This document shows positions 1-62,600 of a DNA stretch of 64,000 bases, in pieces (the stretch's first letter is position 1; each line of letters begins with the position of its first letter). This stretch comes from Drechmeria coniospora (taxonomy: Eukaryota > Ascomycota > Sordariomycetes > Hypocreales > Ophiocordycipitaceae), in the NCBI RefSeq assembly GCF_001625195.1, contig NC_054391.1:7265157-7329156 (forward strand). Direction: 5' to 3'. The position numbers and the translations under genes are program-made. The notes beneath the pieces were generated by a model that was given only the letters and a program-made list of their open reading frames with translations, had not been told where the DNA came from and ran no database searches.

Positions 1-244
1 GAACTTTGAAGAATTCATAAGATTTAAGCCAAGAATAGTATAGGAAATTCATCGCGGCTTCCCAAAGATGAAACCATAAGCCTTTGCTAGAATATTGGTT
101 TAAACGGAGAAGGGCGTGTAACAGGACGACAGATGCATTCAATCGACGACTCAATCCTAAATTGAATCGTCGCTAGTCACAGTGTAGGGGTGTGTATATA
201 TTGACAAAGGCAAGTCAATGCGTGGGCAAACTGTCTTAGAAAAG

Positions 245-1013: not shown

Positions 1014-1547
1014 ATGAGAATCGAAACCGCAATTAAATTCACAGCCGTTGCTGCGGCTAGCAGCGTGCTCTCGGCACCAATGGCGGCTCCAAAAGCCATG
1101 AAAATTGATAGCTTGGCCAACCACCCACCTTTGAGTCCACAGGCTGTTGAAATGGCATTAAAGGAATGGGAAACTCCAGAGCCATGGGAAAAGCGCCAGC
1201 AGATGCCCTATGAAAAGGAGTTCCCTAACGTCAAGCGCCAGCAGATGCCCTATGAAAAGGAGTTCCCCAACGTCAAGCGCCAGCAGATGCCTTATGAAAA
1301 GGAGTTCCCCAACGTCAAGCGCCAGCAGATGCCCTATGAAAAGGAGTTCCCCAACGTCAAGCGCCAGCAGATGCCCTATGAAAAGGAGTTCCCTAACGTC
1401 AAGCGCCAGCAGATGCCTTATGAAAAGGAGTTCCCCAACGTCAAGCGCCAGCAGATGCCTTATGAAAAGGAGTTCCCCAACGTCAAGCGCCAGCAGATGC
1501 CTTATGAAAAGGAGTTCCCCAATTCCAAGGTTGAGCTCACTGGCTAA
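1014..1547 (+). CDS. Secreted Kex2-processed repeat peptide precursor (ribosomal-peptide/KEP type)
   Basis: This is an intronless 177-residue protein. Residues 1-20 look like a signal peptide (positive start, Ala/Val/Ser-rich core, cleavage likely after an Ala near 18-24). Residues 21-59 are a leader or spacer ending in WE. Residues 60-171 are eight tandem copies of a 14-mer, KRQQMPYEKEFPNV; the last ends FPNS and is followed by KVELTG. Each copy starts with Lys-Arg, a Kex2 site, so the secretory pathway should release seven QQMPYEKEFPNV-type peptides plus a C-terminal variant. In known families (ustiloxin, phomopsin, asperipin, epichloecyclin precursors) this design feeds UstY/DUF3328 oxidases that cyclise through Tyr or Phe, and both residues are in this core. 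No such enzyme gene is visible here, so an unmodified secreted peptide or repellent-like protein is also possible. ATG 1014 was chosen because it begins the signal peptide and follows a TATA box; the frame stays open upstream but without signal-like sequence. It lacks the WC...CW core of hypocrealean alpha-pheromones. Confidence 0.88.
   Translation: MRIETAIKFTAVAAASSVLSAPMAAPKAMKIDSLANHPPLSPQAVEMALKEWETPEPWEKRQQMPYEKEFPNVKRQQMPYEKEFPNVKRQQMPYEKEFPNVKRQQMPYEKEFPNVKRQQMPYEKEFPNVKRQQMPYEKEFPNVKRQQMPYEKEFPNVKRQQMPYEKEFPNSKVELTG
1191..1526 (+). repeat. Eight tandem 42-base coding repeats
   Basis: Copies start at 1191, 1233, 1275, 1317, 1359, 1401, 1443 and 1485. Apart from the last codon of copy 8 (GTC to TCC), only two positions vary: the Pro codon before Tyr (CCC or CCT) and the Pro codon before Asn (CCC or CCT). 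Both changes are synonymous. Confidence 0.97.
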
Positions 1548-2268
1548 GTCCGTTTGGCGTGGTTGCGCAACACATCAAACGATGTACTTCGGCTCGGCTT
1601 GTCAACAACAGGATTTACTACATTCCATAGATCATGTTTTCGGCTTTATTACAAAACTGCTGGGCTCATAAGGGAGGGCATTGAAATTTGATTTAACTCT
1701 TCCTCCGAAGGAAAGTGCGTTGAAGAAATCATCGTACGTCATCGATGTCATTCTCCTCATGTAAGCGCGACATGAAACGCCACATAATTGGTTATCATAT
1801 AAAAGTTGAGATACACACGAGTTTTGCTCCAGTGCTCACAATGATCCCATTTTTCGTATTAGTTCATGCCAATGTGATGCATTCACGGCCTACGCATATG
1901 TTGCACAACATAGTCATACGAATGGGGCTCCGCTCAACGTTGGCAAAAGTTGGTAGGCTGAACGATGTAATTTAGATCAACATGTGATTTTCCTTGGCTT
2001 CAAGCCATCTTCATTGTGAATCAATAATTGGTTTGGTTTCATTACACATTATGTTGTTGAACTGGAGTCCGATCCGTTGGGTTTGATATGCAATAGAATA
2101 TCCACCGTCTTGTCAGCAATGCAAGATTACATCGTGTGCTTACAATGCAAGATTACTCAGCGTGGTTTGCGAGGCAAGATTACTCCCTGGGTATTGGAAC
2201 ACGATTGAGTGATGTTTCACTAATGATAGGGTTACCCAAATGGATTTCATCGAATCTATGCACGAAGT
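1548..2268. other. AT-rich intergenic, nothing recognised
   Basis: Only short ORFs without known motifs occur. Near 2118-2192 a short phrase (AATGCAAGATTAC and variants) recurs three times as a degenerate local repeat. No gene is supported. Confidence 0.5.
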
Positions 2269-2920
2269 AGCTGTTCTTAGGATTCGGCTATATGGTGGCG
2301 CAATGGCGTAAGTCTGCTGAGATCCTGTAAATATTGCGATCTGCAAGGATAGTCAGAGCCTGCCATCAACGAGGAGTACCAGCAAACGTAGTAATAACAC
2401 ATGCGATGCTGTCGCGCCGACGCGCCAACGGGCCTGTAACGGGTTTAAAGTCCGGGTAGTTAGTTACGTAACGTGTTCACATTTACGCCTATTTACTGTA
2501 AGCAGGCGCTGAGGACACCTAGTGGTAATAATTAGGCAACAACAGCATCCGGAAGAACACTAATATATTGATTCTGACCCATCTCACGATACTTGATTCG
2601 TTGTAGTCCTAGTCAGGGGCGGACCCTCTTCCTCTGTTGCATCAGATGCGCCTACAAGTGTACATATACAAGGACGCAATTGGTTCTGCCCCGCTAGCAA
2701 TACTCAGGTGGAGTAAGCATTTTATCATGGCTTACCTGCGCATTGTAGTGGCTGGAAGTCTTGGAGGGCGATAGATTTATCCATAGCCGACGTCGTTTGA
2801 TGTTGTAAACAATCCTTGCATTCGCTCAGAAATATCGTTAGCACATGTAACCATCTTGGTGGTGTTATGGGAGAAACGTTGAGCGTGACAACTGGTCTAC
2901 ATTTGTCGACGATGCCAATT
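2269..2920 (+). pseudogene. Broken remnant of the six-cysteine secreted protein family
   Basis: Bases 2269-2345 match the end of exon 2 and the start of intron 2 of the gene at 3981, including the Trp-Trp-Cys-Asn-Gly coding block (altered) followed by GTAAGT. Bases 2825-2920 match the end of exon 3 (the GDNWSTFVG-like region and final Cys codon). About 480 unrelated bases lie between them and exon 1 is missing. The flank to about 3215 matches the 3' flanks of the genes at 12562 and 14537, so this was once a full duplicated unit. Confidence 0.7.
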
Positions 2921-3980
2921 GCTGAGCTGGTGTAGCAACTTCTTGAGAAAGTTGTATGAGTTCAAATTTATCAAGGAGTATTCTATAAAAATCATTGAAG
3001 CTAAACCGTTTACACCTCGCCAACAATACTATTCATATCTTCCTTTAGTAATCATATTTTTGCAGTTGGGATAAGCTCGGCAAAAATGGGACTCGCAAGA
3101 GTTAGAGTCATTTTGGTAGCTTGCAGGCCGGTCACAATTAGATAGTTGTGAGGATGACGGCCATGAGTGCATCGATCCCGAGCTGTCTTAGCTTCCATCG
3201 GCAGTCTTCCGACAGGCAGTTCCCACCCGATTATCTGTGTCTGGCCATGCTGATAAATATTGTGCGTAATCTGCTAGGAATATGTGAGCCAAGGAATCCA
3301 TCCGCCATAACTAAACCGGACCACTAAAAATGGCCGCCGCACCGAGTCCCTGCTTAATGGATGCTAGGAAATATACTGTGCAACAAACTATGCATGAATG
3401 GTTATTATTACTTGGTGTTGTTATTGGCGTTGTTGCTGACCGGGGCACTTGAATCCCACGGCGTCATGACCACGATGAGACCGCTGCTTACTAGCTGAGG
3501 GGCTCGTGGTCGGTGGGGCGGCGTAGTATTGACCTCGTAGAAACCCCCTCTTCCTCTTGCGAGGAGCTCTCTCCCAGCCATTACTAGGAGTCCCAGTTAC
3601 GATTTATGTTACAGTATGAAGTATCAATTGCTCAAATGGATGCAACCGTGCAGGTGCAACTAATAATCAAGGTAGCGAAGGAGCATCGGTTAATTGCAGG
3701 CCGACTTTCAAGTAATCTTCGGACCAGACATTCACTGAAGTCCATAAACTTCGTCGGATTAGATGCATAAATGGGCCAGCGTAGCACTGTACCTGTAGTA
3801 CTAGAATTTACTTAAAGTCAGCCGATATCTGTCTGGCTTTGGTTAAAGCAAGTCAAACATAACTATTCCGGAACTCAACGAGTCTTGCGCGGAAATTGAC
3901 GTTCGAAAAGTCCAACAACATCAGGATTACTCAATTCTCATCAATTGATTTATCTCTGCAAACCAAGAATTTCCATCATC
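2921..3980. other. Intergenic: duplicated 3' flank, dispersed repeat, conserved upstream region
   Basis: Bases 2921-3215 are the decayed 3' flank shared with 13228-13640 and 15203-15640. Bases 3395-3620 are a dispersed repeat also found at 9535-9725. Bases about 3735-3980 resemble the DNA upstream of the other paralogues (a block like GATGCATAAATGGGCCAGCG followed by GTAGCAC) and probably hold the promoter of the gene at 3981. Confidence 0.5.
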
Positions 3981-4653
3981 ATGCGTTACTCTCTTCACCT
4001 ACTTTTTGCAGCCGCCGTGGCTAAGGAGGTAGAATATACTCTTTCCGTCATTGGAAGAATATCATTCAGCGACTCACATTTTATAGGTTATTTCCAGCGA
4101 GGTCCCTATCCCCGGATACGGTGTAGAAGTACTGCAGTGGGATGTTGAGGTTTCTCCGGGTAGGGTAGAAGCCCTCAATGGCACCGTTCAGGAGGTCTAC
4201 GCACAAGCTCTCCAAATCAATCCTAACTTTAAACTTATGCCTGTTTCTGAGAAGAGAGATTTATACGAGAGGGACGTCAACTGCGGTATTGGTAAGTTTG
4301 CTCATAAAGGCCCAATTGAAGAGGGCATCAAATACCTTCGTGGTTTGTCAGGGGCACCTTCCAGCAGCCCTTATGGTCTTAGGTGTGCTCGGGTTAGCTG
4401 CTCCTATGATTCTGCCATCTGGTGGTGCAATGGCGTAAGTCTACTGAAATCCTATCTCTTTCTGTAACGCAAATATTTGAGACTAACGGCTGACATGGTA
4501 CAGAGCGCAGGAGAGAAAACTCTGGGCGGCTGGGACTGGATTGCCAATAGCGCTCAGCGTATTGTCGATACATGTGCTTCCGGGGCTGACAAAGTTTCGG
4601 GGAGAAGCTATGAGGATGAATGGTCAACATTTATCCAGGGTGCCAATTGCTAA
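3981..4653 (+). CDS. Small secreted six-cysteine protein, paralogue A
   Basis: Three exons: 3981-4028, 4087-4434 and 4504-4653, giving 181 residues. Exon 1 encodes only the signal peptide start (MRYSLHLLFAAAVAKE) and exon 2 continues VISSEVPIPGYG. The N-terminal half (EVLQWDVEVSPGRVEALNGT... INPNFKLMPV) has no cysteine and ends in a dibasic EKRDLYER. The C-terminal half holds all six cysteines, including CARVSCSYDSAIWWCN and a final Cys as last residue, which suggests three disulfides. Splice sites are GTAGAA/TAG and GTAAGT/CAG, both phase 0. Exon structure and phases match four other copies in this window. Function is not recognised; size, signal peptide and cysteine pattern are those of fungal effector-like or antimicrobial secreted proteins. 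Processing at the dibasic site by Kex2 is inferred. Confidence 0.88.
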
Positions 4654-5263
4654 TTTGGTAAATGATCGCCATGAGTATAACCACAAATTGTTATATTGGG
4701 TCGCATTTTGTTTTTTTCCTTGATGTTGCATGTAGTGATGTTGCATGTAGTGGTAGTTCGGGTGAAGAACTAATGGCATTTGCCGTATGCAATGCAAGGA
4801 CCATTATGTTTTGTGGCTGTCTAGTGCGTCTCAATGTCGATTGATGCAGTAGATTTTCCGGTAATTTTTGCGCAACTGCATTGTTATTTTGTATTACCTA
4901 CATTCAAGGATCTATATTCAAACCATCCATTTCGACTTGCGTCCCTCCAGTGCTACCATGTGGCCACGCTAATAAACTCATATCCTAGTATTCTAATAAT
5001 ATACGAGTATTCCTAACTCTACGAACTGTTGGTTCCGTTCTGTGGGAAACTGGTAACAAGAGATCTCTTTCAATGATTCAATTTGGTACGAAGGAAGGAA
5101 ATAGGAGGTTGCGTTGACGCGACCTACTTTCCCAAGGAAATCTCACGGGTTGTGATTACGTAATCATAATCTAGGTCACGGGATCCAAGAGGCGCACGGG
5201 TACCCGTGCATCCAAGTAATATTTCAAGAATATTATGTAAGCGCTATCATTTACTTCTACCAA
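4654..5263. other. AT-rich intergenic with LTR-like repeat
   Basis: No gene is recognised. The phrases ACATTCAAGGATC (about 4900) and GTATTCCTAA...ACGAAC (about 5010) recur near 9320 and 8960, so this stretch is built from dispersed repeats. Confidence 0.5.
5028..5165 (-). repeat. LTR-like dispersed repeat, copy b
   Basis: It begins TGTTGGTTCCGTTCTGTGGG and ends near GATTACGTAATC. It is the reverse complement of the copy at 245-387, with a shared central GTTGCG...CGACCTACT block. It is intact over its length but has no partner LTR or internal coding region nearby. Confidence 0.5.
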
Positions 5264-5565
5264 TTGAGTTCGTTGGAGGACAGTGCTATTCGCAGATGGG
5301 TATTTTATAAAGCATTACGGAAGGTTAAAGAACTGCAGAAGCTACTTTACAATAACTACTTACCTGGTTTTACTGGTGTATTCTCTCAATCTTATAGTCT
5401 CCCTTGCGTACATACAATAAGTGCCCTACAAGAACAAGATCAACCCCTTAATTTACAGCTCTCCCATGCACAGTAGCTCCTTCGTCGTAATGGCAATCCT
5501 CAAGTATTACTCGAGCCTCGTCAATATATTAATCGAATAGCTACAAATTCAACCAACCCGTGATC
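5264..5565 (+). pseudogene. Relic of a Mutator-like (MULE/Hop-type) transposase C-terminus
   Basis: In one frame the translation shows SLPCVHTI, then DQPLNLQLSHAQ, a TAG stop at 5474-5476, then LLRRNGNPQVLLEPRQ. This order resembles the SWIM-type zinc-binding tail of fungal MULE transposases (LPC.H.I ... PL.L..FH.HW.L.R ... LEPR). The stop sits where Trp is expected, and TGG to TAG is a CpA to TpA change on the other strand, as made by RIP. The catalytic core is absent. Confidence 0.55.
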
Positions 5566-6379
5566 TAGTACTAAGTGCGAGCGTAGTTTTTTTTAAAGTA
5601 ATTGAAGCAGCAACACGGCCAAGAGCACAACCAAAATGCTGCGAACAAAGTCATGCTCTTTAAGATATACAAAGCTATTGCAACAAGTATCAACAACAAT
5701 ACCAGTACCGGCACCGGCAGCAATAGCTACAGCTAGTTTTAGTACTAGTACTATTATTGCTGCTAGAACTATACGGTATGATAGCCCAGAGGCTATCTAT
5801 TAAAGATATGTTGCATTAATGAGGCTTGGCACAAGACGCAACCAAATAGTAGTCTAATGACTAACCAGAAGTATTGTAAGGCAATGGGGCTACCGTTACA
5901 GCATAATAAAGGTGGATATTCTTGCAATTTGTATCCGCAAGAGGAGGGGGTAGTGGAAGTGTATCGCACGGACCAGGGAATCAATCACGCCGTTGGTAAC
6001 AGCAAAATGGGTGCCAGATAGTAACTGGGTAAGAGTGCAAATTTAGGGATACCCAATTATACAAACGAATGCGATTATTCTATTAAGTACAGTACAGGGG
6101 AAATAGGACTATTTATGCCTGTGAGGTAGTACCTCGACAACCTTGTACGCCTGGGTCGAGACCATAACTGCCATACTAATGTGCGCATATATGAGCCTGT
6201 TATGTCAGGTGGCCAGTCCATTATACCGCGCAGTAGGTCACCTGCTTGGTAGTATTCGCACGGTGAGTCACCGGCTTGGTTGCCCCTGTACTATAGGTAA
6301 AATTGCCAAGAGTAGTACTGTTGGCTGGCAACGGCTAGTAGCGGTTGGGAGAATGGCAATTCGAGTTCCGATCAATTGA

Positions 6380-6625
6380 CTTAAGTGATCGACTGGATAC
6401 TACTAATGTAGGTCGTATAGTAGTAGTAAGTTGGCTGGCAGTAGTACTATCGCCAGTCGCTCCGAGTCGTAATAAGGAGAAGTAGTATGTTGTATACTAT
6501 TGGTCAACTCAATATACTTACTTATACTCGCAGTATAGTATAGTATATTTGCTAGTAGTAGTACAACTAGCAGTCGCTACTAGTAGTAGCAATAATAGGA
6601 TAGTATCCTATTTGGGTAGTCTTAC
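6380..6625. repeat. TAGTAGTA-rich low-complexity tract
   Basis: Repeated AGTAGTA, TAGTAC and GTATAGTATAG phrases dominate this stretch on both strands. It has no coding character. Confidence 0.6.
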
Positions 6626-6969
6626 TAGTATAAATACCAGTATTTTAACAGATATAACTGGTGCTTTAACAGGAGGTTTATTGTTATGGTCTTGGGCTTT
6701 GCCCAAGTACAATGGTTAACAAGAGTGGCAACGACCCTTATAAGCGTAGCTAATTGACAAAGTGTACTGTACAGTACCTCAGTGCATACGCCATACAAGT
6801 AACCAAGTGCTGCAGCAGGTACGGAGTAATGCTTGCTGGTTTAATGGAACAGGCGCCAATACGTACCCTTTTGCTAGATGCAATAAGGGGGCGCCGCATG
6901 GCGCAACGGCGGACACTGCTTATGCCCCACTGGGGTCAGTCCGTAACAATGCGTAGGCAAAGCAACTTA

Positions 6970-7060
6970 AATAATGATTACGTAATCTCAACTTTGCGAC
7001 CAACTAGGGGATAAGTAGAATGCATTAGCGCAACCTCCTTTTTCCTCCCTTTGAAAGAGT
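6970..7060 (+). repeat. LTR-like dispersed repeat, truncated copy c
   Basis: GATTACGTAATC, ACTAGGGGATAAGTAG and GCGCAACCTCCTTTTTCC follow in the same order as at 247-310. The 3' end breaks off after CTTTGAAAGAG and passes into CCCGCAT-type short repeats like those inside the copy at 9092-9300. Confidence 0.5.
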
Positions 7061-7573
7061 TCACTTATCCCCCCCGCATCTTACTTACATTTCCCGCATC
7101 CTACTTATTCCCCCGTTGGTTATGTCGCAGCTCTATGTGGGTCACTGTATACATCCATTGACTTCCCCCTACTCAATGTACCTATACAAGTATTGACCTC
7201 CCTCTGGTCAATATGTACACACAATTACACTAATAAAATCATGTAAGAATTCATTCTCCATCCGACAATACGGAGGTACCATTTGACAGTGACAAACATT
7301 CATTGGTTATTGCCCTACATACAATAATTGTTACACACGCCGTAACCCATGCTACTCCATGCAATACAAATGTCTATCTTGCCCTTCAACTTTCCCAACT
7401 CGTACAATCCATCTACTAGGTGGCGCTTTGAGCTTGGGCTCCAGGCAAGACCGTGACCTACGCTACCGACTAATGATTATGCTCAATGCAAGGCCAACTT
7501 GACAATTTTTGGCCCGAGGCCAAAACGTATATCTCATATTTCACCGCTATGCTGAAGGCGATGATAGGCTATG

Positions 7574-8247
7574 TTAGCAATCGTCATGGCTGATAAACGT
7601 ACTCCAATCATCCCCCTCATGGTTAAGCCCTGAAACCTTATCAGCCTCGGAAGCACATGTGTTGACAATATGCTGAGCGCTATTGGCAATCCAATCCCAG
7701 CTGCCTAATGTTCTCAGGTATGGCTTCTGTGCCATGTTAGCCGTTGGCCTGTGATATTCACGTTACTAAAGGGTTAGCATTTTGGTAGACTTACGCCACT
7801 GCACCACCAGATGGCCGAATTATAGGAACAGCTAACTCGAGCACAGATGGAATCGCCAGGCCCGTTGCTAGGCGCCCCGGACAAACCACGAAGGTATCTA
7901 ATACCCTCTTCAATTGCGCTTTTATAAGCAAGCTTATACGTGCCGCATTCGACGGGAGTATTCCTCTCGTATAAATCCCTCTTCTCGGAAACGGGCATAA
8001 GCTTAAAGTTGGGGTTGATTTGGAGAGCTTGTGCGTAGACCTCCTGAACGGTACCATTAAGGACTTCTACCCTGCCTGGAGAAACCTCAATATCCCATTG
8101 CAGCACTTCTACACCGTATCCAGGGACAGGGGCTTCGCTGCCGATTACCTGTAAAATGTGAGTCACTGAATGGAATTCTTGAAATTGAAAGGATTATACC
8201 CTTTTAGCCATCGCGGCTACAAAAATAAGGTGAACAGAGTTGCGCAT
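7574..8247 (-). CDS. Small secreted six-cysteine protein, paralogue B
   Basis: Exons on the minus strand are 8247-8200, 8148-7795 and 7726-7574, giving 184 residues. The signal peptide starts MRNSVHLIFVAAMAKR, then VIGSEAPVPGYG. The cysteine-free region EVLQWDIEVSPGRVEVLNGT ends at EKRDLYER, followed by six cysteines (VECG, ICARVSC, IWWCS, NTC, and DDC at the C-terminus). Splice sites are GTATAA/CAG and GTAAGT/CAG in phase 0. It is the only member on the minus strand, so it was moved as an inverted copy. Its upstream DNA (8248-8500) carries the same conserved promoter-side blocks as the plus-strand members. Function unknown; secretion is well supported. Confidence 0.87.
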
Positions 8248-9091
8248 TATGGTAGAGACTCTCGGTTTGAAGAGATTAATCAATAGATGAGAATTGAGTA
8301 ATGCTGAAGCTGTTAGACTTCAAAAATTGATTCCTGCCAATGACTTGTTGAGTTCTACATTAGATATATTTGACCTACTTATAACAATGCCAGACAGATT
8401 TCGTTTGCGTTGACCTAAGTTCTTTTACTACGTGTACAGTGCTGCGTTGACCCATTTAGGCATCATTCCCGAAGAAGTTCGTAGACTTGAGAGAATTTCT
8501 GTTCAGTAAAATGAGCTTACAAGAACTTCCTGCCAATGGCTTATGCCATTTTATTGGCTTGCTTATTGCTTGTACATTCACGGCTCAATCCATTCGGCCA
8601 ATTCATACATGTGCATATACGTCCCACTGAAACATAACTCTTAACCGGAAATCCTTTATAAATGGCCAGGAGAGCTCCTTGCATGAGGAACATGGCGGCC
8701 CTTGGAGATCAATACTACATCACCCCAGTTCCTGCCTCGGCTGGTACGATGCGCTTGAGTATCCGTCGTAACACCGTGGGATTGCGGCGACCTGGATAGG
8801 ACCAATAATAATAATGCGTCAAAATATCCGTTTACGTGTTATCATCTGTCACAATATATTGTACAGCCTTATTTAAGGCCGATACCTAATAGTGCTGCGC
8901 CCATTTTCGGTGGTCTACTTTCGTTGCGACGCACTCCTTAATTCATAAGCATATTAGAGTATTCCTAATTATACGAACCGTTTTCTCTATTCACACGAAA
9001 CGTTGTCTAGCGCCCACAAAGCCCCACTATAAATTCTTAGTGCCAATGCAATACAAAAAGATACATATACTGTAAGTAATTAACTTGAGTG

Positions 9092-9300
9092 TTGGTTTAG
9101 TTCTGGGGGAAACTGGTAAAAGTAGGATGCGGGGGAATGAAGTACGATGCGGGGGTATGAAGTACGATGCGGGGGAATTAAGTAGGATGTGGGGGAATTA
9201 AGTACGATGCGAGGGCGCCATCCTCCTTTTCCTTCCGTACAAAATTGAGTCAATGAAAGAGATCTCCTGTTACCAGTTTCCCCCAGAATCGAACAATAAT
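9092..9300. repeat. Head-to-head LTR-like repeat with inner 20-22-base minisatellite, copy d
   Basis: The left end reads TGTTGGTTTAGTTCTGGGGG, and the right end carries the reverse form (ACCAGTTTCCCCCAGAATCG), making a palindromic unit. Inside, at 9122-9212, about five copies of a GATGCGGGGGAATGAAGTA-like unit lie in tandem. Confidence 0.6.
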
Positions 9301-9534
9301 AATACATTATTTTGTTTGGGTACATTCAAGGATCAATATTTGAAACGCCTTTCAGCTATTCATACAATATATCACTTGTGTCTGTCAGGCCGTACTGATA
9401 CTCATATTTTACTACGTAATCAGATAATACTTCCCGTGAACCTGTATGTTGCACTCAATTAGACTATCAATATTCGGCGCTAGACTGAATGTCGACTTTC
9501 TGAACACAATATAGTATTTTGTACGAGAAACCGT

Positions 9535-9725
9535 AATATATAACCACTCGTTGTTACTTGGCTTTGTTACTTGGCTTTCGTATTGCCATCGTTGATACTA
9601 GCACTCCAATCCCACGGTGTCAACCGTAGCAGGAGCGCCGCTTACTAGCTAAGCGACTAGTATTAGTAGGGTGCTGTAGTATTTATTTTTAAGAATCCCT
9701 CTTCGTTCTAGGATATTTGAGTTCC
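9535..9725 (+). repeat. Dispersed repeat shared with 3395-3620
   Basis: Both copies hold AATCCCACGG(T/C)GTCA, then GCTTACTAGCT(A/G)AG, then AGTATT and a CCCTCTTC(G/C)T tract in the same order and orientation. The copies have diverged heavily. Family not identified. Confidence 0.5.
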
Positions 9726-10679
9726 GTTTGGTTAAGTGTAGTTTTTTGCTTGAATGGATTACTACAGCACCACGTATAGCTAGTATGAATTTATACTCAA
9801 TGAACTGTGTAACAGCCAATCATCTGACACTATTTTCACCAATCAATGTCAGACAAAATTGCGCAATGACTGCAGATAATATTGAGTATACCATAAAATG
9901 GAATATACAACTATGTACATCTGATCGTAGTATTACTGCACCATCGTTGTGTTTGTGAATCTAGCGTTATACTGCCAGGGGGCTGCGCAGGTGCAGGTGG
10001 GGGCTACGTTGAAGGATTGCCGTCTCCGTGCGGAGTAGGTGTACAAGTACGGAGGAGGTCGCAATGCAATAATCCGTGCATGTACATCATAGGATGGGCG
10101 GTGGCAATGTTTCGTACGGAGTAAGCATGCATGGATTACCTGGATGGATGGATGGAACAGTGCATTTGCTGCAATCGAGCCAGGCAAATAGTGGAAGTGC
10201 ATGAATCATGTCAATTCTAGAGTACAAGTGCACTGTCAGTCAGGCCCACGCCCAGAGCAAAATTGCTGCCCCAAGGCCTCAATCGATGGCTGGCAGTTCG
10301 CGACTAAGCTAGCTAGACAGTAGTTTTATCAATGCTATAGGATTTTATGGGATAATCACTCAATAGATCAGCGCAATACTTCAATAATACACGTATTATT
10401 TGGTTGGAGACAACTGACAGCTGTCTGGCTTTGGTGCACGTAGGTGCGTTGACCTTCCCCCTCACCATCGGAGGAATCTGACGAGGATGACGAGAGTCGT
10501 GCGGCGGTCCTGGGATTTGCGTCGTCGCCGCCACTGGCCGCCCTTGTGTGCCTTGGATACGACGCCCCAGAGCAACCGATAGGAATCAACATTCAGGATC
10601 ACTGGCTTACGTTCCGTAGCATCGGGATTGCTTGATTAACATCCGTCAAGCTTCCTTTAAACCAAGAGTCCCGAACAGA

Positions 10680-10870
10680 ATGCGGACTTCTCTCAGCTTT
10701 ATTTTTGCTGCCGCACTGGTCCAAGTAGTATGCTCCTTCTACTCTTGTTGGATTCTATTCAATGACCTATATACATTAGGTTCTCTCTAGTGAGGGAGGG
10801 TCCTATCCCTGTTTATTGTATCGTGGTACTGTAGTGGGATACGGAGGTTTGTACAATTATAGGTCCTACA
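10680..10870 (+). pseudogene. Truncated copy of the six-cysteine secreted protein family
   Basis: Exon 1 is intact (MRTSLSFIFAAALVQV, 10680-10727), followed by a good GTATGC donor. After the TTAG acceptor near 10784-10793, exon 2 starts in recognisable form (TATCCCTG, then GTACTGTAGTGGGATACGGAGG) but is out of frame and is lost by about 10855. All cysteine-coding parts are missing. The preserved exon 1 suggests recent decay or truncation by insertion. Confidence 0.72.
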
Positions 10871-12561
10871 TCTTTATATGAGGTTTTTCGAGATCTAAGT
10901 ATATTAGGTTGTATACAAGTAACTGCTACTGTAGAAATACAAAACCATTTCATGCATAAGATTAAATTTCGTTCCAAAAAATTTAAGTTGGACTAATGTA
11001 TTGAAAATGGGGCTGATCGAAAAGCTTGTTTAAATAGATAAGGCGCGTGTCCAAATAGTGAGCATTGCTAGGTCATACACTCTTTGCTGTTCATCCTTGC
11101 GGTTCTACGCCGGCGCTGGCCACATTCCGCCACAGTATTATATTACAAACATACCATAGGAGCTTCAATTAAAGAGCCAATTGCTCATCCCTATCTGCTA
11201 TTGTATAACAGTAATAATACTTTATGAAGTTTTCTAGTAACGATAGTACAGCTGCCGCCCTATCCTGCCATATCCAACCTCGTAATGCCTTAGCCGCTTG
11301 TTGCCTTCTCCTACGGGCTCATAAAGTTCAAAGTATAATAAATCTCGTCTTTTACTAAGGTTAAGTCTGGTAGTCCCCCAGCCCTATTACGGCTTGGCTG
11401 TGCATTTGGCTGTAATCCTGGGTTCAATACAAGTATACTATCTTGAGAAGCCTGAGGCCGACCCGAAGGTTCTATGCGATGGCCGGGCCATGTGTTCGAA
11501 GGAGGGCGTTTCACATATCCAGTGGCTTCTGCAGCCGTTTCACATATCCAGTGGCTTCTGCAGCCACTATTACCATAGATGGCATTCACCCCTAACTATT
11601 ATTTTATTACAGATAGTTCCAATTTTAGGGTTAACAAGCAATAGGTCTTGCAGAATTATGTAGCTACTGCTGCATAGGCTGGTTTGCTGGCTAAGTAGCT
11701 AGAATGAAATCCTTGTCTCATTCTGTTGTATGTACAACACGCATACCAGAATCCTTTCGCGGAATGTAGCGGCGCTGGGGTCGAATGGTATGGATGAAAC
11801 CAAAAAGCGTATGGCTAAATAGCAATGCTCCATATAGTTAGTAATAACCATCTTGCTAAATTCCTTATTCCGTTCTATTTTCACATACCAGCAGAGTGGT
11901 AAGAGTTCGCTTATAGTATACATTACTCCGTACTTCGTATGCTGACATGACCACATTAACGCCTTCACCTGCCCTATATGGAGGTTACTCTATCGGCAGA
12001 TAACTAAGCTGAGTATCAAGGATAGAGCTTGGCACGACCCTATGTCCCAGGCTTACTATTACCGCTGCGGTAAGGAAATACTTGGGTTGTATAGAACAGC
12101 GACATACTACGAGGAAGTAGCTATTTTAACTTGGATACTATGGAAATACGGAATATTACAGAGTGATACACCATATATTTATAATTCTTACCGGTGGCTG
12201 CAGCTTTGTGGGGACAGGGATTGCAGGATTGTTAACAATACGAGAATCCCTATGGATAACAAAAGAACAATACGGGATGGTTGATGATGCACCGTAGGGC
12301 AAGGATTAAGTGCTTTTTATAAGTAAGCATGTGTGTATTGCCTTGATAGATGGAACTGCAGTATTACCCGCACTTAATTGAAGACAACCGACATCCGTCT
12401 GGTTTGTTCTAAGTAGATGCGTAAAAAATGTATATTAAATACAAATTCCAAGGGTTCTCAGCGGAAATCAACATCTCACTTCCACTACTCTACGCTCGAT
12501 AACATCAAGATTGCTTGGTATACGATTATCAAGTTCACTTCAGCCTAAAGTCTTTACCAGA
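10871..12561. other. Intergenic, left part of a segmental duplication
   Basis: From about 11,890 the sequence aligns with 13,860 onward at equal distance from the next ATG (about 667 against 669 bases). Near 11,508-11,565 a 28-base phrase (TTTCACATATCCAGTGGCTTCTGCAGCC) occurs twice in direct tandem. No gene recognised; ORFs at 11,311-11,968 have no known motif. Confidence 0.5.
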
Positions 12562-13227
12562 ATGCGGACTTATCTAGGTCTTAAGTTTGCTGCCGTACTG
12601 GCCCAAGGGGTATGCTTATTCTTATCTTATTGAGTTTTATTCCGTAACTTATATATAATAGGCATTCTCTGCTGAGCCCCCTATCCCTGGATACGGTATA
12701 GAAGTACTGGAGTGGAATGTTGAGGTTTCTCCTGGCCGAGTAGAAGCCCTCAATGGCACCGTCCAGGAGGTCTTCGCACAGGCTCTCCAAATTAACCCTA
12801 ATTTTCAACTTAAGCCCGTTTCTGATGCAAAGAACTTATACAAGAGACGCCCGCCAGTTAAATGCGACGGTGTTGGGTTGGAGTCTGCTAGTACGAGAAC
12901 AATTGAGGATGGCGTTGACTACCTTCGTCGTTTGTCGGGAACGCCTAGTCACGGCCCTGGTCCAAATGTCTGCGCTCGGGTCAGCTGTTCCTATAATGCT
13001 GCTATCTGGTGGTGCAATAGAGTGAGATTACTGCAATATCTGCTTTTGTTATTACATACTAACGACCGATGGAATAGAACGAACACCCAATAACTCTAGG
13101 CAGCTGGGACTGGATTGCCAATAGCGCCCAGCATATCGTTAATACATGCAACCATCGTGGGGTGGTAAGGGGAGAAAACATCGAGGGTGACAACTGGTCT
13201 ACATTTGTCGGCTATGACAATTGCTGA
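12562..13227 (+). CDS. Small secreted six-cysteine protein, paralogue C
   Basis: Exons are 12562-12609, 12662-13021 and 13078-13227, giving 185 residues. The signal peptide starts MRTYLGLKFAAVLAQG, then AFSAEPPIPGYG. The cysteine-free part (EVLEWNVEVSPGRVEALNGT) ends at NLYKRRPPV, a tribasic site, followed by six cysteines (VKCDG, VCARVSC, IWWCN, NTC, DNC). Intron 2 uses GTGAGA instead of the GTAAGT of its sisters, with a TACTAAC branch point. It is close to the copy at 14537 (nearly 90 percent identical by eye), with which it shares both flanks. Function unknown; effector-like by form. Confidence 0.87.
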
Positions 13228-14536: not shown

Positions 14537-15202
14537 ATGCGGACTTCTCTGAGGCTAGGTTTTGCAGCCATACTGGCCCAAGGGGTATGCTGCTTCTAAT
14601 TATATTGAGCTTTATTCAGCAACTTATATACTATAGGTATTCTCTACCGAAGCCCCTATCCCTGGATTTGGTGTAGAAGTATTGGAGTGGAATGTTGAGG
14701 TTTCTCCTGGCCGGGTGGAAGCCCTCAATGGCACTGTCCAGGAGGTCTTTGCACAGGCTCTCCAAATTAACCATTATTTTCAACTTAAGCCCATTCCTGA
14801 GGCAAAGAACTTGCACAAGAGGCGCCCACCCGTTAAATGCGACGGTGTTGGGTTGGAGTCTGCTAGCACGAGAACAATTGAGGATGGCGTTAGCTACCTT
14901 CGTCGATTGTCGGGGACGCCTAGCCACGGCCCTGGTCCAAGTGTCTGCGCTCGGGTCAGCTGTTCCTATAATGCTGCTATCTGGTGGTGCAATAGAGTAA
15001 GTCTACTGCAACGTCTGTTACTGTTATTATATACTAACGACTAGTGGAATAGAACCACCACCCAATAACTCTAGGCAGCTGGGACTGGATTGCCAATAGC
15101 GCCCAGCATATTGTTAATACATGCAGCCATCGTGGCATGGTCAGGGGAGAAAATATCGAGGGTGACAACTGGTCTACATTTGTCGGCCATGCCAATTGCT
15201 GA
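14537..15202 (+). CDS. Small secreted six-cysteine protein, paralogue D
   Basis: Exons are 14537-14584, 14637-14996 and 15053-15202, giving 185 residues. The signal peptide starts MRTSLRLGFAAILAQG, then VFSTEAPIPGFG. The proregion ends at NLHKRRPPV; six cysteines follow in the same places as in copy C. Intron 2 has GTAAGT and a TACTAAC branch point. Most differences from copy C are conservative or cluster in the proregion (PNFQLKPVSDAKNLY against HYFQLKPIPEAKNLH) and near the C-terminus. All splice sites and frames are intact, so the duplicate is probably expressed. Confidence 0.87.
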
Positions 15203-16909: not shown

Positions 16910-17601
16910 ATGCACATTTCTCAAAGCCTTATTTTTGCAGCCACGTTGGCTAAAGGCGTATGCTCCCTTCAATTCTAGGGAATATGTATTTCAATTACTG
17001 ATATACATAGGTCATCGCCCTAGAGGCACCTATACCCGGATATGGTGTTGAAGTGCTGCAGTGGGATGTTGTGGTTTCTCCTGGCAAGGTAGAGGTTCTA
17101 AACGGCACGATCCAGGAGGTCTACGCACAGGCTCTCCAAATCAATCCCGACTTCAAAATTATCCCCGTTTCTGAGATGGATCTGCACGAGCGGCGGGACA
17201 TCCTCGAGAGACGTCCTCCCGTCGAGTGTGGCATCTGGCCTCTTGCGGAAAAATTCAGAATTGAGGAGGGTATTGGGTACCTGCGTGGCTTAGAAGGGTC
17301 GCCTAGCCACGGCCCCGGTCCGGGTATCTGCGCTCGGGTTAGCTGTTCATATAATGCTGCTATCTGGTGGTGCAATGACGTAAGTCTCCTGCAACCTCGT
17401 CTTCCGTTGCAAAGATGATGTTATAGACTAACGGCACCCATGATATAGAATACAAACCCGATCACTCTGGACAAGTGGTACTGGCTTGCCGATAGCGCCC
17501 AGCATATTGTTAATACTTGTGCTCCCTATTCTGAGGAAGTTTCGGGGAAAAACGTGGAGGGGTCTAACTGGTATTCATTTATCGGCCGTACAGAATGCTA
17601 A
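16910..17601 (+). CDS. Small secreted six-cysteine protein, paralogue E
   Basis: Exons are 16910-16957, 17011-17379 and 17449-17601, giving 189 residues. The signal peptide starts MHISQSLIFAATLAKG, then VIALEAPIPGYG. The linker is longer than in its sisters and has two dibasic motifs (HERRDILERRPPV). Six cysteines follow: VECG, ICARVSC, IWWCN, NTC and TEC at the end. Exon 3 is the most divergent (LDKWYWLADSAQ against LGSWDWIANSAQ). Splice sites are GTATGC/TAG and GTAAGT/TAG, phase 0. It is the last copy before the GC-rich conserved block. Function unknown. Confidence 0.87.
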
Positions 17602-56631: not shown

Positions 56632-59600
56632 ATGAATCTTATTAATCTAAAGATCTTCAGCATACTAGGATCGCTCCTTCTCTTAGTTTTCGGACAAGAT
56701 CATTCATATCACAATGGCATTATTGTCGTCGAAAAGCAGCCGATAGAGTATGCTTGCTCGGACCTTACGACCCAAAGGGGCATCCTTCGGTAAATTGCAA
56801 ACCCAGCCACTCTTCACTCGGTAGTATATTAACGTCCGCTATTAGTACATATACATGGTATCCAGATATTGTAACAGCTACTACCCAAGGGTCAGTTGCT
56901 GGAACATCGACGATCTGGCCAAATCCTGACTGCACGTCTGGATGCACTGTCAGTGTTATCGTTACCGTCACCGGCACGGTGTCTAGTACTAAACCTACCC
57001 TCCTTACGACCGTTACGGTCGCGGGGGAAACGCCTGGAACTACAACTATCCTGCCGCCAACCTGGTGTACTACTGGATGTACAACCAGCGTTGTCGTTAC
57101 TATTGCCGGCAGAATTGTTACCCGAACTACCTTAGGACCAACTCCAGGAACTTCGACAAATTTGCCAGCAAGCGGATGCGTTACTAATTGCATTACGACT
57201 ATTGTTATTATCCAAACAGGTGCTATAGTAACTGTTTCAGTTCCAGGACCGACACTAGGAACATCTACAATCCCTCCACCAGACGGGTGCACTACAAGCT
57301 GTACTACTAGCGTTATTGTTACTGTTTCTGAAGGGACTATAACTCGTACTACTCTAGGCCCAATTCCGGGAACCTCGACGATTCTCCCACCCGACGGCTG
57401 CGTTACTGGTTGTGTAACAGTTATTCTTGTAATCCAGACAGGCGCTTTAGTAACAATTTCAACTGTAGGTCCGGTAGCGGGAACATCTACTATCCCCCCT
57501 CCTGCTGGATGTACTACAAGTTGTACTACTAATATTATTGTTACTGTTACTGGAGGATATATTACCCAGACTACTTTGGGACCGATTCCAGGAACCTCAA
57601 CAATTCTACCACCCGACGGATGTACTACTGGCTGCGTTACAAGGATCATTGTAACCCAAGCAGGCTCTCTAGTAACAATTTCAACTGCAGGACCGGTTGC
57701 AGGGACATCTACAATCCCTCCTCCTGCTGGGTGTACTACAAGCTGTACAACTAGTATTATTGTTACTGTTACAGGCGGATTTATTACCCAGACTAGTTTA
57801 GGACCCACTCCGGGAACCTCAACGATTCTACCACCCGACGGATGTGTTTCTGGCTGCGTTACCAGAATAATCGTTATCCAAACGGGCGGTTTAATAACTA
57901 TTACAACCGCAGGACCGATTCCCGGAACGTCCACTATCCCCCCCCCTGCTGGGTGTACTACAAGCTGTACTACTAGCGTTATTGTAGTGGTTACTGGAAC
58001 TATTGTATCTCAGACTACCCTAGGACAGGTTCCGGGAACTTCAACAATGCTGCCACCCGCCGGGTGCATTACTGATTGTGTTACGATAATTATAGTTACT
58101 CAGACAGGTGTCCTTAGAACTGTTACAACTGCAGGTCCGAATGCGGGAACATCTACAATTCCTCCACCAGCAGGATGTACTACAAGCTGCACTACTAATA
58201 TTATTGTTACCATCGCCGCTGGTATTCTAACCCAGACTACTTTGGGACCGACTCCGGGAACATCAACTATTCTACCACCCGAAGGATGTACTGTTGGTTG
58301 TGTTACAACCGTTATAGTTATCGAAACTGGTGCCGTTACAACTATTAGAACCCCAGGACCTATTGCGGGAACATCTACAATCCCACCACCACCTGGATGC
58401 ACCACAAGCTGCACTACTAGAATTATTGTTACAATTAATGCCGGCATACTAACTCGTACAATTTTAGGCCAGATTCCAGGTACTACAACAATTGTACCAC
58501 TCGCTGGATGCGTTGATGGTTGCATAACTTCTGTTATCATTACCCAAACAGGCGAAGTTACAACTATATCTACCTCAGGACCAGTTCCTGGTACATCAAC
58601 GATTATTCCGCCAGAAGATTGCACACATCCCTGCACAACCAGCATTATTGTTACTACAGTCCCGAATGAGCCTCCAGATACAATTGTCACTAGGATAACT
58701 ACTGGCTCAGTTGCGGGTACAAGTACAATCATACCACCGCCGGACTGTACGCATCCTTGCACGACGAGTGTTATCATTGCTGTTTTATCAATTCAGGCAA
58801 CAGATACGGCGCCCATTTACTCAACGGTCACTGGACCAACACCAGGTACAAGTACGATCCTTCCACCACCGGATTGTACGCCTCCATGCAGAACAATTGT
58901 CATTGTAACGGTTGCGCCGACAGGAGGTACCGAAACGCCTATAATTTCAACGGTTACTGGGCCAATAGCGGGTACAAGTACGATTCTTCCACCGCCGGAT
59001 TGCACACCACCATGCAGAACGATACTCATTGTCACTGTTGCTTCTACACAACCTCCGATTTTCTCAACCGTCACTGGACCGACGGCCGGCACAAGTACTA
59101 TCAACCCACCACCGGATTGCACGCCTCCATGCAGACCAATAATCATTATTACAGTTGCTTCTACAGGAGGCCCAGAAACGCCCATCATTTCAACAGTCAC
59201 TGGACCAACACCTGGTACAAGTACGATTCTTCCACCGCCGGATTGTACACCACCATGCAGAACAGCACTTATAGTCACCATTGCACCTACGGGAGGTCCT
59301 GAAACTCCTATAATTTCAACGGTGACTGGACCAATAGCCGGCACAAGTACGATTCTTCCACCGCCGGATTGTACACCACCATGCAGAACGATACTTATTG
59401 TTACTGTTGCGTCTACACAACCTCCTATTTTCTCTACGGTCACTGGACCGACGGCTGGTACAAGTACAATCAATCCACCGCCAGATTGTACGCCTCCATG
59501 CAGACCGATAGTCATTATAACAGTTGCTTCTACGGGAGGTCCCGAAACACCTATAGTTTCAACGGTCACTGGGCCAATTGCTGGTACAAGTACGATTCTT

Positions 59601-62600
59601 CCACCGCCGGATTGTACACCACCATGCAGAACAATACTTATTATTACTGTTGCATCTTCACAACCTCCTATTTTCTCCACAGTCACTGGGCCGACAGCCG
59701 GCACAAGCACAATCAATCCACCGCCAGATTGTACACCTCCATGTAGACCAATAGTCATTATTACAATTGCGTCTACAGAAGGACCCGTTTTCTCGACAGT
59801 AACTGGACCAACGGCCGGCACAAGTACGATTCTTCCACCGCCGGATTGCACACCTCCGTGCAGAACAATAGTCGTTGTCACTGTTGCGTCGTCCGAAGTT
59901 CCTATTTTTTCAACAGTCACAGGACCGACGGCCGGCACAAGTACGATCCTGCCACCACCAGATTGTACGCCTCCGTGCAGACCAATAGTCATCATTACAG
60001 TTGCGTCTACAGGGGGTCCCGAAACACCCGTTATCTCAACGGTCACTGGCCCAATAGCTGGTACGAGTACAATACTTCCACCGCCGGATTGTACACCACC
60101 ATGCAGAACAATACTTATTGTTACTGTTGCGTCTACACAACCTCCTATTTTCTCAACAGTCACCGGCCCAACGGCTGGAACAAGTACAATTAATCCACCG
60201 CCAGATTGTACACCACCTTGCCGACCAATAGTCGTCATTACGATTGCGTCTACGGAAGGTCCTAGTTATTCAACAGTGACTGGTCCAACAGCCGGCACAA
60301 GCACGATTCTTCCACCGCCGGATTGTACGCCTCCGTGCAGAACAATAGTCATTGTCACTGTTGCGTCTACAGAAGGTCCTATATTTTCAACAGTAACTGG
60401 ACCAACGGCTGGTACAAGTACAATCCCTCCACCACCCGATTGTACGCCTCCATGCCGAACAGTAATTATTGTCACCGTCGCATCTTCTCAAGGTCCTATC
60501 TTTTCTACAGTGACTGGGCCGACGGCTGGTACGAGTACGATCCCTCCGCCTCCTGACTGTACGCCTCCGTGCCGAACAGTTGTTATTGTTACTGTTGCGT
60601 CTTCACAAGGTCCTATCTTTTCAACAGTCACTGGACCGACAGCTGGTACTAGTACTATCCCTCCACCGCCCGATTGTACGCCTCCTTGCCGAACAGTTAT
60701 TATTGTTACCGTCGCATCTTCTCAAGGTCCTATCTTTTCTACTGTAACTGGACCGACAGCTGGTACAAGTACGATCCCTCCACCTCCTGACTGTACGCCT
60801 CCGTGCCGAACAGTAATCATTGTTACTGTTGCATCTACGGAAGGTCCTATTTTCTCAACAGTGACTGGACCGACGGCCGGTACGAGTACTATCCCTCCAC
60901 CACCTGACTGTACGCCTCCATGCCGAACAGTTGTTATTGTTACCGTTGCATCTTCTCAAGGTCCTATCTTTTCTACTGTAACTGGACCGACAGCTGGTAC
61001 GAGTACGATCCCTCCACCGCCGGATTGTACGCCTCCTTGCCGAACAGTTATTATCGTTACTGTTGCATCTACAGAAGGTCCTATTTTCTCTACAGTAACT
61101 GGGCCGACGGCCGGTACGAGTACGATTCCTCCACCTCCTGACTGTACGCCTCCATGCCGAACAGTTGTTATTGTTACTGTTGCGTCTTCACAAGGTCCTA
61201 TCGTTTCAACGGTCACTGGACCGACAGCTGGTACTAGTACTATCCCTCCACCGCCCGATTGTACGCCTCCTTGCCGAACAGTTATTATTGTCACCGTCGC
61301 ATCTTCTCAAGGTCCTATCTTTTCTACTGTAACTGGACCGACAGCTGGTACAAGTACGATCCCTCCACCACCCGATTGTACGCCTCCATGCCGAACAGTA
61401 ATCGTTGTTACTGTTGCATCTACGGAAGGTCCTATTTTCTCAACAGTGACTGGACCGACGGCCGGCACGAGTACTATCCCTCCACCTCCTGACTGTACGC
61501 CTCCGTGCCGAACAGTTGTTATTGTTACCATTGCATCTTCTCAAGGTCCTATCTTTTCAACGGTAACTGGTCCAACGGCTGGTACAAGTACTATCACTCC
61601 ACCGCCTGACTGTACACCTCCGTGCAGAACAGTTGTCATTGTTACTGTTACATCTAATCAACCATCCGGATCGCTTGTTTTCTCAACAGTAACTGGACCA
61701 ACAGCTGGTACAAGTACCATTACTCCACCCCCCAATTGTACTCCCCCATGTAACACCGTAGTAATTGTTACTGTTGCGTCTACGGAAGGACCAATTTTCT
61801 CAACAGTAACTGGACCGACCGCAGGGACAAGTACGATCAATCCACCGCCTGATTGTACGCCTCCGTGCAGAACAGTTGTTATTGTTACTGTTGCGTCTTC
61901 ACAGCTTCCCATTTTCTCAACTGTGACTGGACCGACGGCCGGTACAAGTACGATTACTCCTCCGCCTGATTGTACTCCTCCATGCCGAACAATAGTCATT
62001 GTTACTGTTGCATCTACAGATGGTCCAATTTTCTCAACTGTGACTGGACCAACAGCCGGGACAAGTACAATCACGCCACCCCCCGATTGCACGCCTCCGT
62101 GCAGAACAGTCGTTGTTGTTACTGTAACGTCTGGTCAACCCACCGGATCACTTGTCTTTTCAACAGTAACTGGACCGACAGCTGGTAGAAGTACCGTCAC
62201 TCCACTTCCAAATTGTACACCTCCGTGCAATACAGTTGTTATTGTCACTGTTGCGTCTACACAACCTCCTATTTTCTCAACAGTAACCGGACCAACGGCC
62301 GGAACAAGTACAATCACGCCACCACCCGATTGTTCGCCTCCATGCAGAACAATAGTTATTGTAACTGTTGCGTCTACAGAAGGTCCTATTTTCTCTACAG
62401 TAACTGGACCGACAGCCGGTACAAGTACAATCACTCCACCACCTGATTGTACGCCTCCGTGTAGAACAGTTGTCATTGTTACTATTGCGTCCTCACAAGG
62501 TCCAATCTTTTCAACCGTGACTGGACCGACGGCTGGTACGAGTACGATCTCTCCATCGCCAGATTGTACGCCTCCATGCAGAACAGTAATTATTGTTACT

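Follow-up and report, generated by a model that had tools for sequence, protein, structure and literature searches.

Here, we analyzed a window of 64,000 nucleotides on contig C3 of a fungal genome (32,831,003 bases, 28 contigs). Window position 1 corresponds to C3:7265157, and positions left of the window are numbered 0 or negative (0 is C3:7265156). Near the left edge lies the gene of a Kex2-processed repeat precursor (KEP) on the + strand (1014-1547), which is open throughout without intron and encodes 177 amino acids in a single exon, from the ATG at 1014 to the stop at 1545-1547. The N-terminus, MRIETAIKFTAVAAASSVLSA, contains a single hydrophobic stretch (residues 9-21; best 11-residue Kyte-Doolittle mean 1.81), and hydropathy points to a putative signal peptide of residues 1-21 (1014-1076). 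The protein is probably secreted. Translation places a pro-region (residues 22-59, 1077-1190) between this putative signal peptide and the first Lys-Arg.

The remainder of the protein is built from tandem repeats. Tandem Repeats Finder reported an array at 1191-1522 with a period of 42, 7.9 copies, 97% matches and a score of 622, and its units start at 1191, 1233, 1275, 1317, 1359, 1401, 1443 and 1485. The original prediction had described eight perfect 14-residue repeats opened by Lys-Arg. Eight units opened in this way are indeed present; seven of them (1191-1484, + strand) are exact by amino acids, each translating to KRQQMPYEKEFPNV, i.e., KR followed by the core QQMPYEKEFPNV, whereas the eighth (1485-1526, + strand) is the variant KRQQMPYEKEFPNS (KR followed by QQMPYEKEFPNS), which ends with Ser. 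It is followed by the C-terminal tail KVELTG and the stop (1527-1547, + strand), with no dibasic site behind it. Seven cores are hence enclosed between two KR sites, and the eighth forms a variant at the C-terminus. The core comprises the 12 residues between KR sites, begins with Gln and, as had been predicted, carries one Tyr and one Phe in every unit. The presence of eight such units in one frame cannot be explained by chance.

Among units 1-7, just two columns vary, both being third-position C/T differences that are silent in the precursor frame. The same holds in one antisense frame, and one or both of them change residues in four of the five other frames. In one unit, 21 of the 126 possible single changes would be silent, including 13 of the 42 transitions (31%). 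Since nearly one third of transitions would be silent, and since the differences are silent in an antisense frame as well, they lend slight support to selection on the precursor.

We then looked for relatives of the precursor. The whole-genome search returned one match, the gene itself (5 candidates scored), and no homolog was found at E <= 10 in a search of 5.8 billion proteins, in which the 7997 candidates with the most words in common were scored. No Pfam domain scored above cut-off, and three sub-cut-off Pfam matches were regarded as chance, as were weak PDB matches to P450 (E 0.0072 and 0.024, residues 28-61) and Beclin-1 (E 0.36 and above). The core had not been recognized from described products by the original prediction, in agreement with the absence of any match to it in 5.39 million open papers. 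The core sequence QQMPYEKEFPNV is new, although supplementary tables, where KEP lists sit, lay outside the literature search and an unnamed entry for it may exist there.

The original prediction had proposed a search for UstYa/UstYb (DUF3328) homologs left of position 1 and elsewhere, and the immediate neighbor on that side proved to be such a gene. The 5' end of a UstYa-type (DUF3328, PF11807) oxidase gene, part of its first exon, occupies window positions 1-52 on the - strand, with the start codon at 52-50, and the gene continues out of the window to C3:7264124. Our model, with splice sites chosen by eye, consists of five exons (52 to -182, -236 to -397, -443 to -612, -675 to -747 and -809 to -1032) separated by GT...AG introns of 53, 45, 62 and 61 bases, and encodes a stop-free protein of 287 amino acids. 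The spliced protein matches PF11807 with 106.9 bits (E 1.8e-30, cut-off 25) and contains the double HxxHC motif, as HVLHC and HTDHC, together with one TM helix placed by eye; these features make it a member of the PF11807 family. A sub-cut-off match of the same protein to DUF599 was dismissed. The UstYa and precursor genes are divergent and share an intergenic region of 961 bp between their start codons (53-1013), in which TATAAA occurs as a sequence motif at 978-983 on the + strand. In a comparison of promoter regions for common motifs, which was set aside, the longest k-mer tried (12 bases) was shared once.

Twelve UstYa homologs were found at E <= 0.001 among 300 candidates, the best being from Cercospora zeae-maydis (40% identity over 68%), and the double HxxHC is present in all 13 rows of the alignment. 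No PDB relative was found by sequence. In a low-confidence model of one homolog (P0003; mean pLDDT 62.1), the two motifs are located at the starts of successive predicted helices (197-210 and 221-237).

To place this neighborhood in the context of the whole genome, a PF11807 search was carried out, yielding 17 exon matches, 16 of which were over cut-off, in five regions (20 candidates scored; lower bound). Four regions are on contig C2 and one is on C3 (C3:7264190-7264909), immediately beside the left edge of the window. In total, 35,657 bases, or 0.11% of the genome, lie no more than 2 kb from where a PF11807 match starts, the present locus included, so the adjacency of the UstYa and precursor genes is unlikely to be due to chance.

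Beyond the UstYa gene, another gene encoding a double HxxHC motif was identified on the + strand (-2789 to -1646), hereafter the UstY-like gene. Its two-exon model (-2789 to -2770 and -2717 to -1646; first exon by eye) encodes 363 amino acids, in which a membrane helix is followed by HTAHC...HMKHC. The six-frame scan of the ORF (-2785 to -1649) gave no Pfam match at E <= 0.01, and the protein scores 12.5 bits against PF11807, below the cut-off of 25, which places it outside the family by that measure. The double motif itself is rare: this ORF is its sole carrier among 866 ORFs of at least 60 amino acids in 104 kb (in the UstYa gene the pair is split by an intron), and 2 of 200,000 shuffles of its residues contained it. 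The genome search found the gene in a single copy.

The UstY-like protein has homologs in other fungi. Of 91 candidates, 31 proteins were found at E <= 10, the weakest at 6.6e-31 and the best, unnamed, with 70% identity; the 12 that are longer than 350 residues measure 353-367 residues, compared with 363 here. Named homologs include those of Stictis, Periconia, Coleophoma, Parastagonospora, Venustampulla and Colletotrichum, and the group spans four classes of Pezizomycotina (Ascomycota), namely Lecanoromycetes (Stictis), Dothideomycetes (Periconia), Leotiomycetes (Coleophoma) and Sordariomycetes (Colletotrichum). One of the 31 carries a precomputed PF11807 assignment and one is named 'Oxidase ustYa', most others being annotated as 'hypothetical protein' or nameless. 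No paper was found for three locus names of this branch. In an alignment of the query with 23 of the 31 homologs (24 rows), the double HxxHC is present in 22 rows, the second HxxHC being missing in the other two, and PF11807 matches at E <= 1 were obtained for 16 of the 24, the lowest E being 2.6e-5. Profile comparison by hhalign linked this family to the UstYa family with 92.4% probability (E 5e-7) over 90 columns including the motif region; the single sequence gave 80.7% (E 1.3e-5) and a GST control 0.6% (E 0.1). On these sequence comparisons, the UstY-like protein is a divergent, profile-level relative of UstYa that is not filed under PF11807. Scans of viral contigs with both oxidase families gave 32 and 54 pattern matches, none of which was confirmed.

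The predicted structure of the UstY-like protein (mean pLDDT 78.7, pTM 0.51) contains a folded N-terminal domain at about residues 34-139 of the ORF and helices at 173-199, 302-322 and 333-347. In this model, the TM helix precedes the HxxHC(x)nHxxHC pair, whose two motifs are carried by successive helices. Foldseek gave no convincing structural match for the oxidase models (best E 0.47 and 0.22), and the single PDB sequence match of the family (E 0.57) was dismissed.

The wider neighborhood was examined by six-frame Pfam scans of 10 kb flanking the window on the left and of window positions 1600-11598, positions 1-1599 being covered by the two gene models. On the left, the scan detected the UstYa gene, a GST gene (about -4.6 to -3.8 kb) and, more than 8 kb from the window, a CAP-Gly protein whose reading frame also gave a weak coiled-coil match. 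Between the latter two, a CDH-cytochrome (DOMON) match below cut-off lies at -6.3 to -5.3 kb on the - strand; together with b561-like helices recognized by eye, the gene covers about -6.3 to -5.1 kb. Such proteins were rejected as general partners of UstY loci: three PF16010 matches (E <= 1) were found genome-wide, and the other two are away from UstYa genes. The neighbor seen here may be considered a testable but weak candidate for an electron donor that could deliver electrons across the membrane to a lumenal copper oxidase, linked to the peptide locus by nothing but its position. Right of the precursor (1600-11598), no Pfam match was found at E <= 0.01. Neither scanned stretch (10 kb left; 1600-11598) gave a match to a methyltransferase, transporter or isoflavone reductase, and tyrosinase has no match on C3, the three genome-wide PF00264 matches being on C1 and C2.

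The peptide locus is located within an AT-rich stretch (about -8000 to 18000) with a GC content of 0.45, compared with 0.59 and 0.61 in the neighboring stretches; a second drop, to 0.47, is seen at 48-64 kb. The same AT-rich stretch contains five members of a family of small, possibly secreted proteins that share conserved Cys residues (CARVSCSYNAAIWWCN), at 4087-4464 (+), 7777-8193 (-), 12662-13090 (+), 14637-15041 (+) and 17011-17415 (+). This family has 12 matches genome-wide including these five, with no Pfam domain above cut-off in the two copies scanned. At 57212-64000, long diverged tandem arrays with periods of 117, 159, 222, 237 and 444 were observed, which, judged by eye from their unit sequences, probably belong to a Thr/Pro-rich repeat protein that extends beyond the window.

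Lys-Arg-type repeats were also sought in all five UstYa regions (104, 30, 20, 30 and 20 kb), and a likely KEP was found in three of them, the present locus included. The two additional probable precursors beside UstYa-type genes are located at C2:6693587-6694318 (+ strand; L030), with the core KR-GGCYNYI-KR, and at C2:841904-842128 (- strand; L025), with the core ...RSGWLYV-KR. Neither core had a match in the papers searched. Repeats near C2:344 kb passed the KEP filter and were not counted, as they look low-complexity and read on both strands, and the 20 kb examined at the UstYa region near C2:9.99 Mb gave no KEP. With likely precursors in three of the five regions, the pairing of such genes with UstYa genes probably occurs more than once in this fungus. 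With regard to processing, the genome has one match to the P-domain of the Kex2 kind (PF01483; C2:4278551); this match is interrupted by a stop, which may reflect an intron.

How should this locus be classified? A KEP has been defined by at least three tandem repeats of at least 8 amino acids between KR, KK, RK or RR sites (PMC7329392), and the present ORF has eight units, seven of which place 12 amino acids between KR sites. KEPs are also expected to carry a signal peptide for the ER, for which the hydrophobic stretch at residues 9-21 is a putative candidate. Dikaritins are KEP-derived peptides cyclized by UstYa homologs, five of which had been reported by December 2022 according to a review (PMC10512285). 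In Venturia inaequalis, nine dikaritin clusters were called from a DUF3328 gene near a repeat precursor with kexin sites (PMC9632046). The present locus has two features of this class, a KEP precursor clustered with a UstYa homolog and an aromatic residue in the repeat (one Tyr and one Phe), while the third, an oxidatively cross-linked cyclic product, is predicted. The dikaritin/KEP-type design suggested by the original prediction is supported by the repeats and the adjacent UstYa gene. The older five-gene definition of dikaritins does not apply, as it includes a tyrosinase in the cluster and no match to this enzyme lies on C3; later usage does not require this enzyme, and asperipin-2a is made without it (PMC12048977, PMC6514808). 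The core, QQMPYEKEFPNV, also differs from the EDYXI type of ustiloxin and phomopsin.

Based on these observations, it is likely that the product of the ORF is the precursor of a fungal RiPP of the dikaritin type whose ring would be closed by the adjacent UstY-type oxidase(s), and the locus probably encodes a fungal cyclic peptide that belongs to a known class and has so far gone unreported. In the pathway that we infer, the precursor would enter the ER and be cut by Kex2 after each Lys-Arg in the Golgi to give seven 14-mers, in line with UstA, from which Kex2 presumably releases 13-14-mers ahead of cyclization (PMC6514808). A Kex1-like carboxypeptidase would then trim the basic ends, as reported for Kex1 after Kex2 (PMC9769878), resulting in seven identical 12-mers of QQMPYEKEFPNV and one C-terminal variant peptide. 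UstYa, probably together with the divergent UstY-like protein, would oxidize the peptide in the lumen at a two-copper site formed by the HxxHC pair, most likely by cross-linking its only Tyr with a side chain close by, and the cyclic peptide would be secreted, perhaps after further trimming. As no tyrosinase or methyltransferase was found beside the precursor, a minimal, asperipin-2a-like cluster would be expected.

The main rival is that the product is a linear or minimally modified secreted peptide, e.g., a pyroglutamated signal, antimicrobial or surface peptide, and that the UstY enzymes act on another substrate. Its rank is due to the KEP survey, in which 6120 of 7878 predicted genes had no DUF3328 neighbor (PMC7329392); the remaining 1758 represent 22% of KEP genes, the proportion in Ascomycota being 30%. 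Many KEPs yield linear peptides, pyroglutamated ones have been measured in Agaricomycetes (PMC9769878), and the core found here starts with Gln. DUF3328 enzymes have furthermore been described outside RiPP pathways (PMC12048977), and the preferred reading is also weakened by the lack of an EDYXI core, of a tyrosinase on C3 and of any precursor homolog, by the UstY-like gene being below the Pfam cut-off, and by two of the five UstYa regions, one having no KEP and one low-complexity repeats alone. On the other hand, UstYa is the immediate divergent neighbor of this precursor, a position that such a small fraction of the genome could offer. The core moreover has a Tyr, the residue that is cross-linked in ustiloxin, asperipin-2a and phomopsin, and this fits the more common occurrence of Tyr in repeats of KEPs beside DUF3328 genes (65.6%, versus 38.2% in others; PMC7329392). 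We therefore consider a linear product rather unlikely, and a cyclized peptide of the dikaritin type the better explanation.

Two other possibilities are considerably weaker. The array might be a minisatellite within a small secreted protein, with Lys-Arg sites arising by chance and no processed peptide; units that are 97% alike imply recent expansion or homogenization, and other frames through the array are likewise open, with the differences being silent in one antisense frame too. What makes this improbable is the identical place of KR in every unit, the residue changes that the same differences would cause in most other frames, the adjacent UstYa gene and the two other probable KEP-UstYa loci in this genome. 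Even less probable, to the point that we give it hardly any weight, is that the gene is the alpha-type mating pheromone precursor of the fungus. The pheromone precursor design is alike, and the genome has a gene for a STE2-type receptor (two matches free of stops, the better at E 6.5e-77). Alpha-type pheromone cores are of the W...GQ.. type. The core found here has no Trp, Cys or Gly-Gln motif, and the precursor has no MF_alpha Pfam match. A genome search with the pattern W-C-x3-GQ-x-C found four places, none flanked by KR or repeated, and a backward control pattern also found four; no gene with the usual alpha-pheromone motif was identified, leaving this alternative slightly open. According to the KEP survey, known pheromone KEP genes almost never have a DUF3328 neighbor (PMC7329392).

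Taken together, the locus is best regarded as a compact dikaritin-type locus, in which the core and the second oxidase are new and the kind of arrangement, a KEP beside UstYa, is known. The pairing of a repeat precursor with the divergent UstY branch is new. A more far-reaching but doubtful idea is that of a previously undescribed two-oxidase dikaritin system, in which a canonical UstYa would work with a member of a separate conserved UstY branch (below the DUF3328 cut-off of Pfam and having a folded domain before the TM helix), the electrons required by copper DUF3328 enzymes might come across the membrane from the DOMON/b561-like neighbor, and the branch might mark many RiPP loci missed by DUF3328 mining. 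The locus is simple, a single precursor carrying seven copies of the core being accompanied by one clear UstYa gene and by a divergent UstY-like one, so that the substrate of each oxidase can be tested directly, and the occurrence of the UstY-like family in four Ascomycota classes could widen the search for fungal cyclic peptides.

Several known systems resemble this locus. The closest in layout is the asperipin-2a locus of Aspergillus flavus, which consists of the AprA precursor, the AprY DUF3328 oxidase, a transporter and a reductase (PMC6514808); both are small loci combining a repeat precursor with UstY-type oxidation and no tyrosinase. In contrast to the asperipin-2a locus, the scanned stretches here contain no transporter or isoflavone-reductase match and the divergent UstY-like gene is extra, and the asperipin-2a core FYYTGY has three Tyr and two rings, compared with one Tyr in a 12-mer. 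The ustiloxin and phomopsin loci share with the present one a precursor whose N-terminus is signal-like and whose repeats are separated by KR (repeat length 13-14 residues in UstA and 14 in the present case), as well as more than one UstY-type protein. They consist of UstA/PhomA, UstYa-type proteins and a tyrosinase, whereas here no tyrosinase was detected on C3 and no methyltransferase in the scanned stretches, the repeat sequence is different and the EDYXI core (PMC6339444) is absent. The GigA precursor of the Epichloe epichloecyclins also has KR-separated repeats, and a Tyr-based ring is known in its products (PMC9233826, PMC6514808); GigA has a different core and imperfect repeats that give several cyclic nonapeptides, while the present precursor has seven exact copies and one variant. 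With respect to the enzymes, both UstY-type genes encode HxxHC(x)nHxxHC and a TM-like helix like CctR, the DUF3328 hydroxylase of cyclochlorotine, which is described as a dimeric, membrane-anchored and O2-dependent protein whose double HxxHC holds two coppers and which needs electrons from a donor that is not known (PMC12435403). The substrate of CctR is a non-ribosomal peptide and its N-terminus is disordered, whereas the UstY-like protein carries a folded N-terminal domain in the predicted model.
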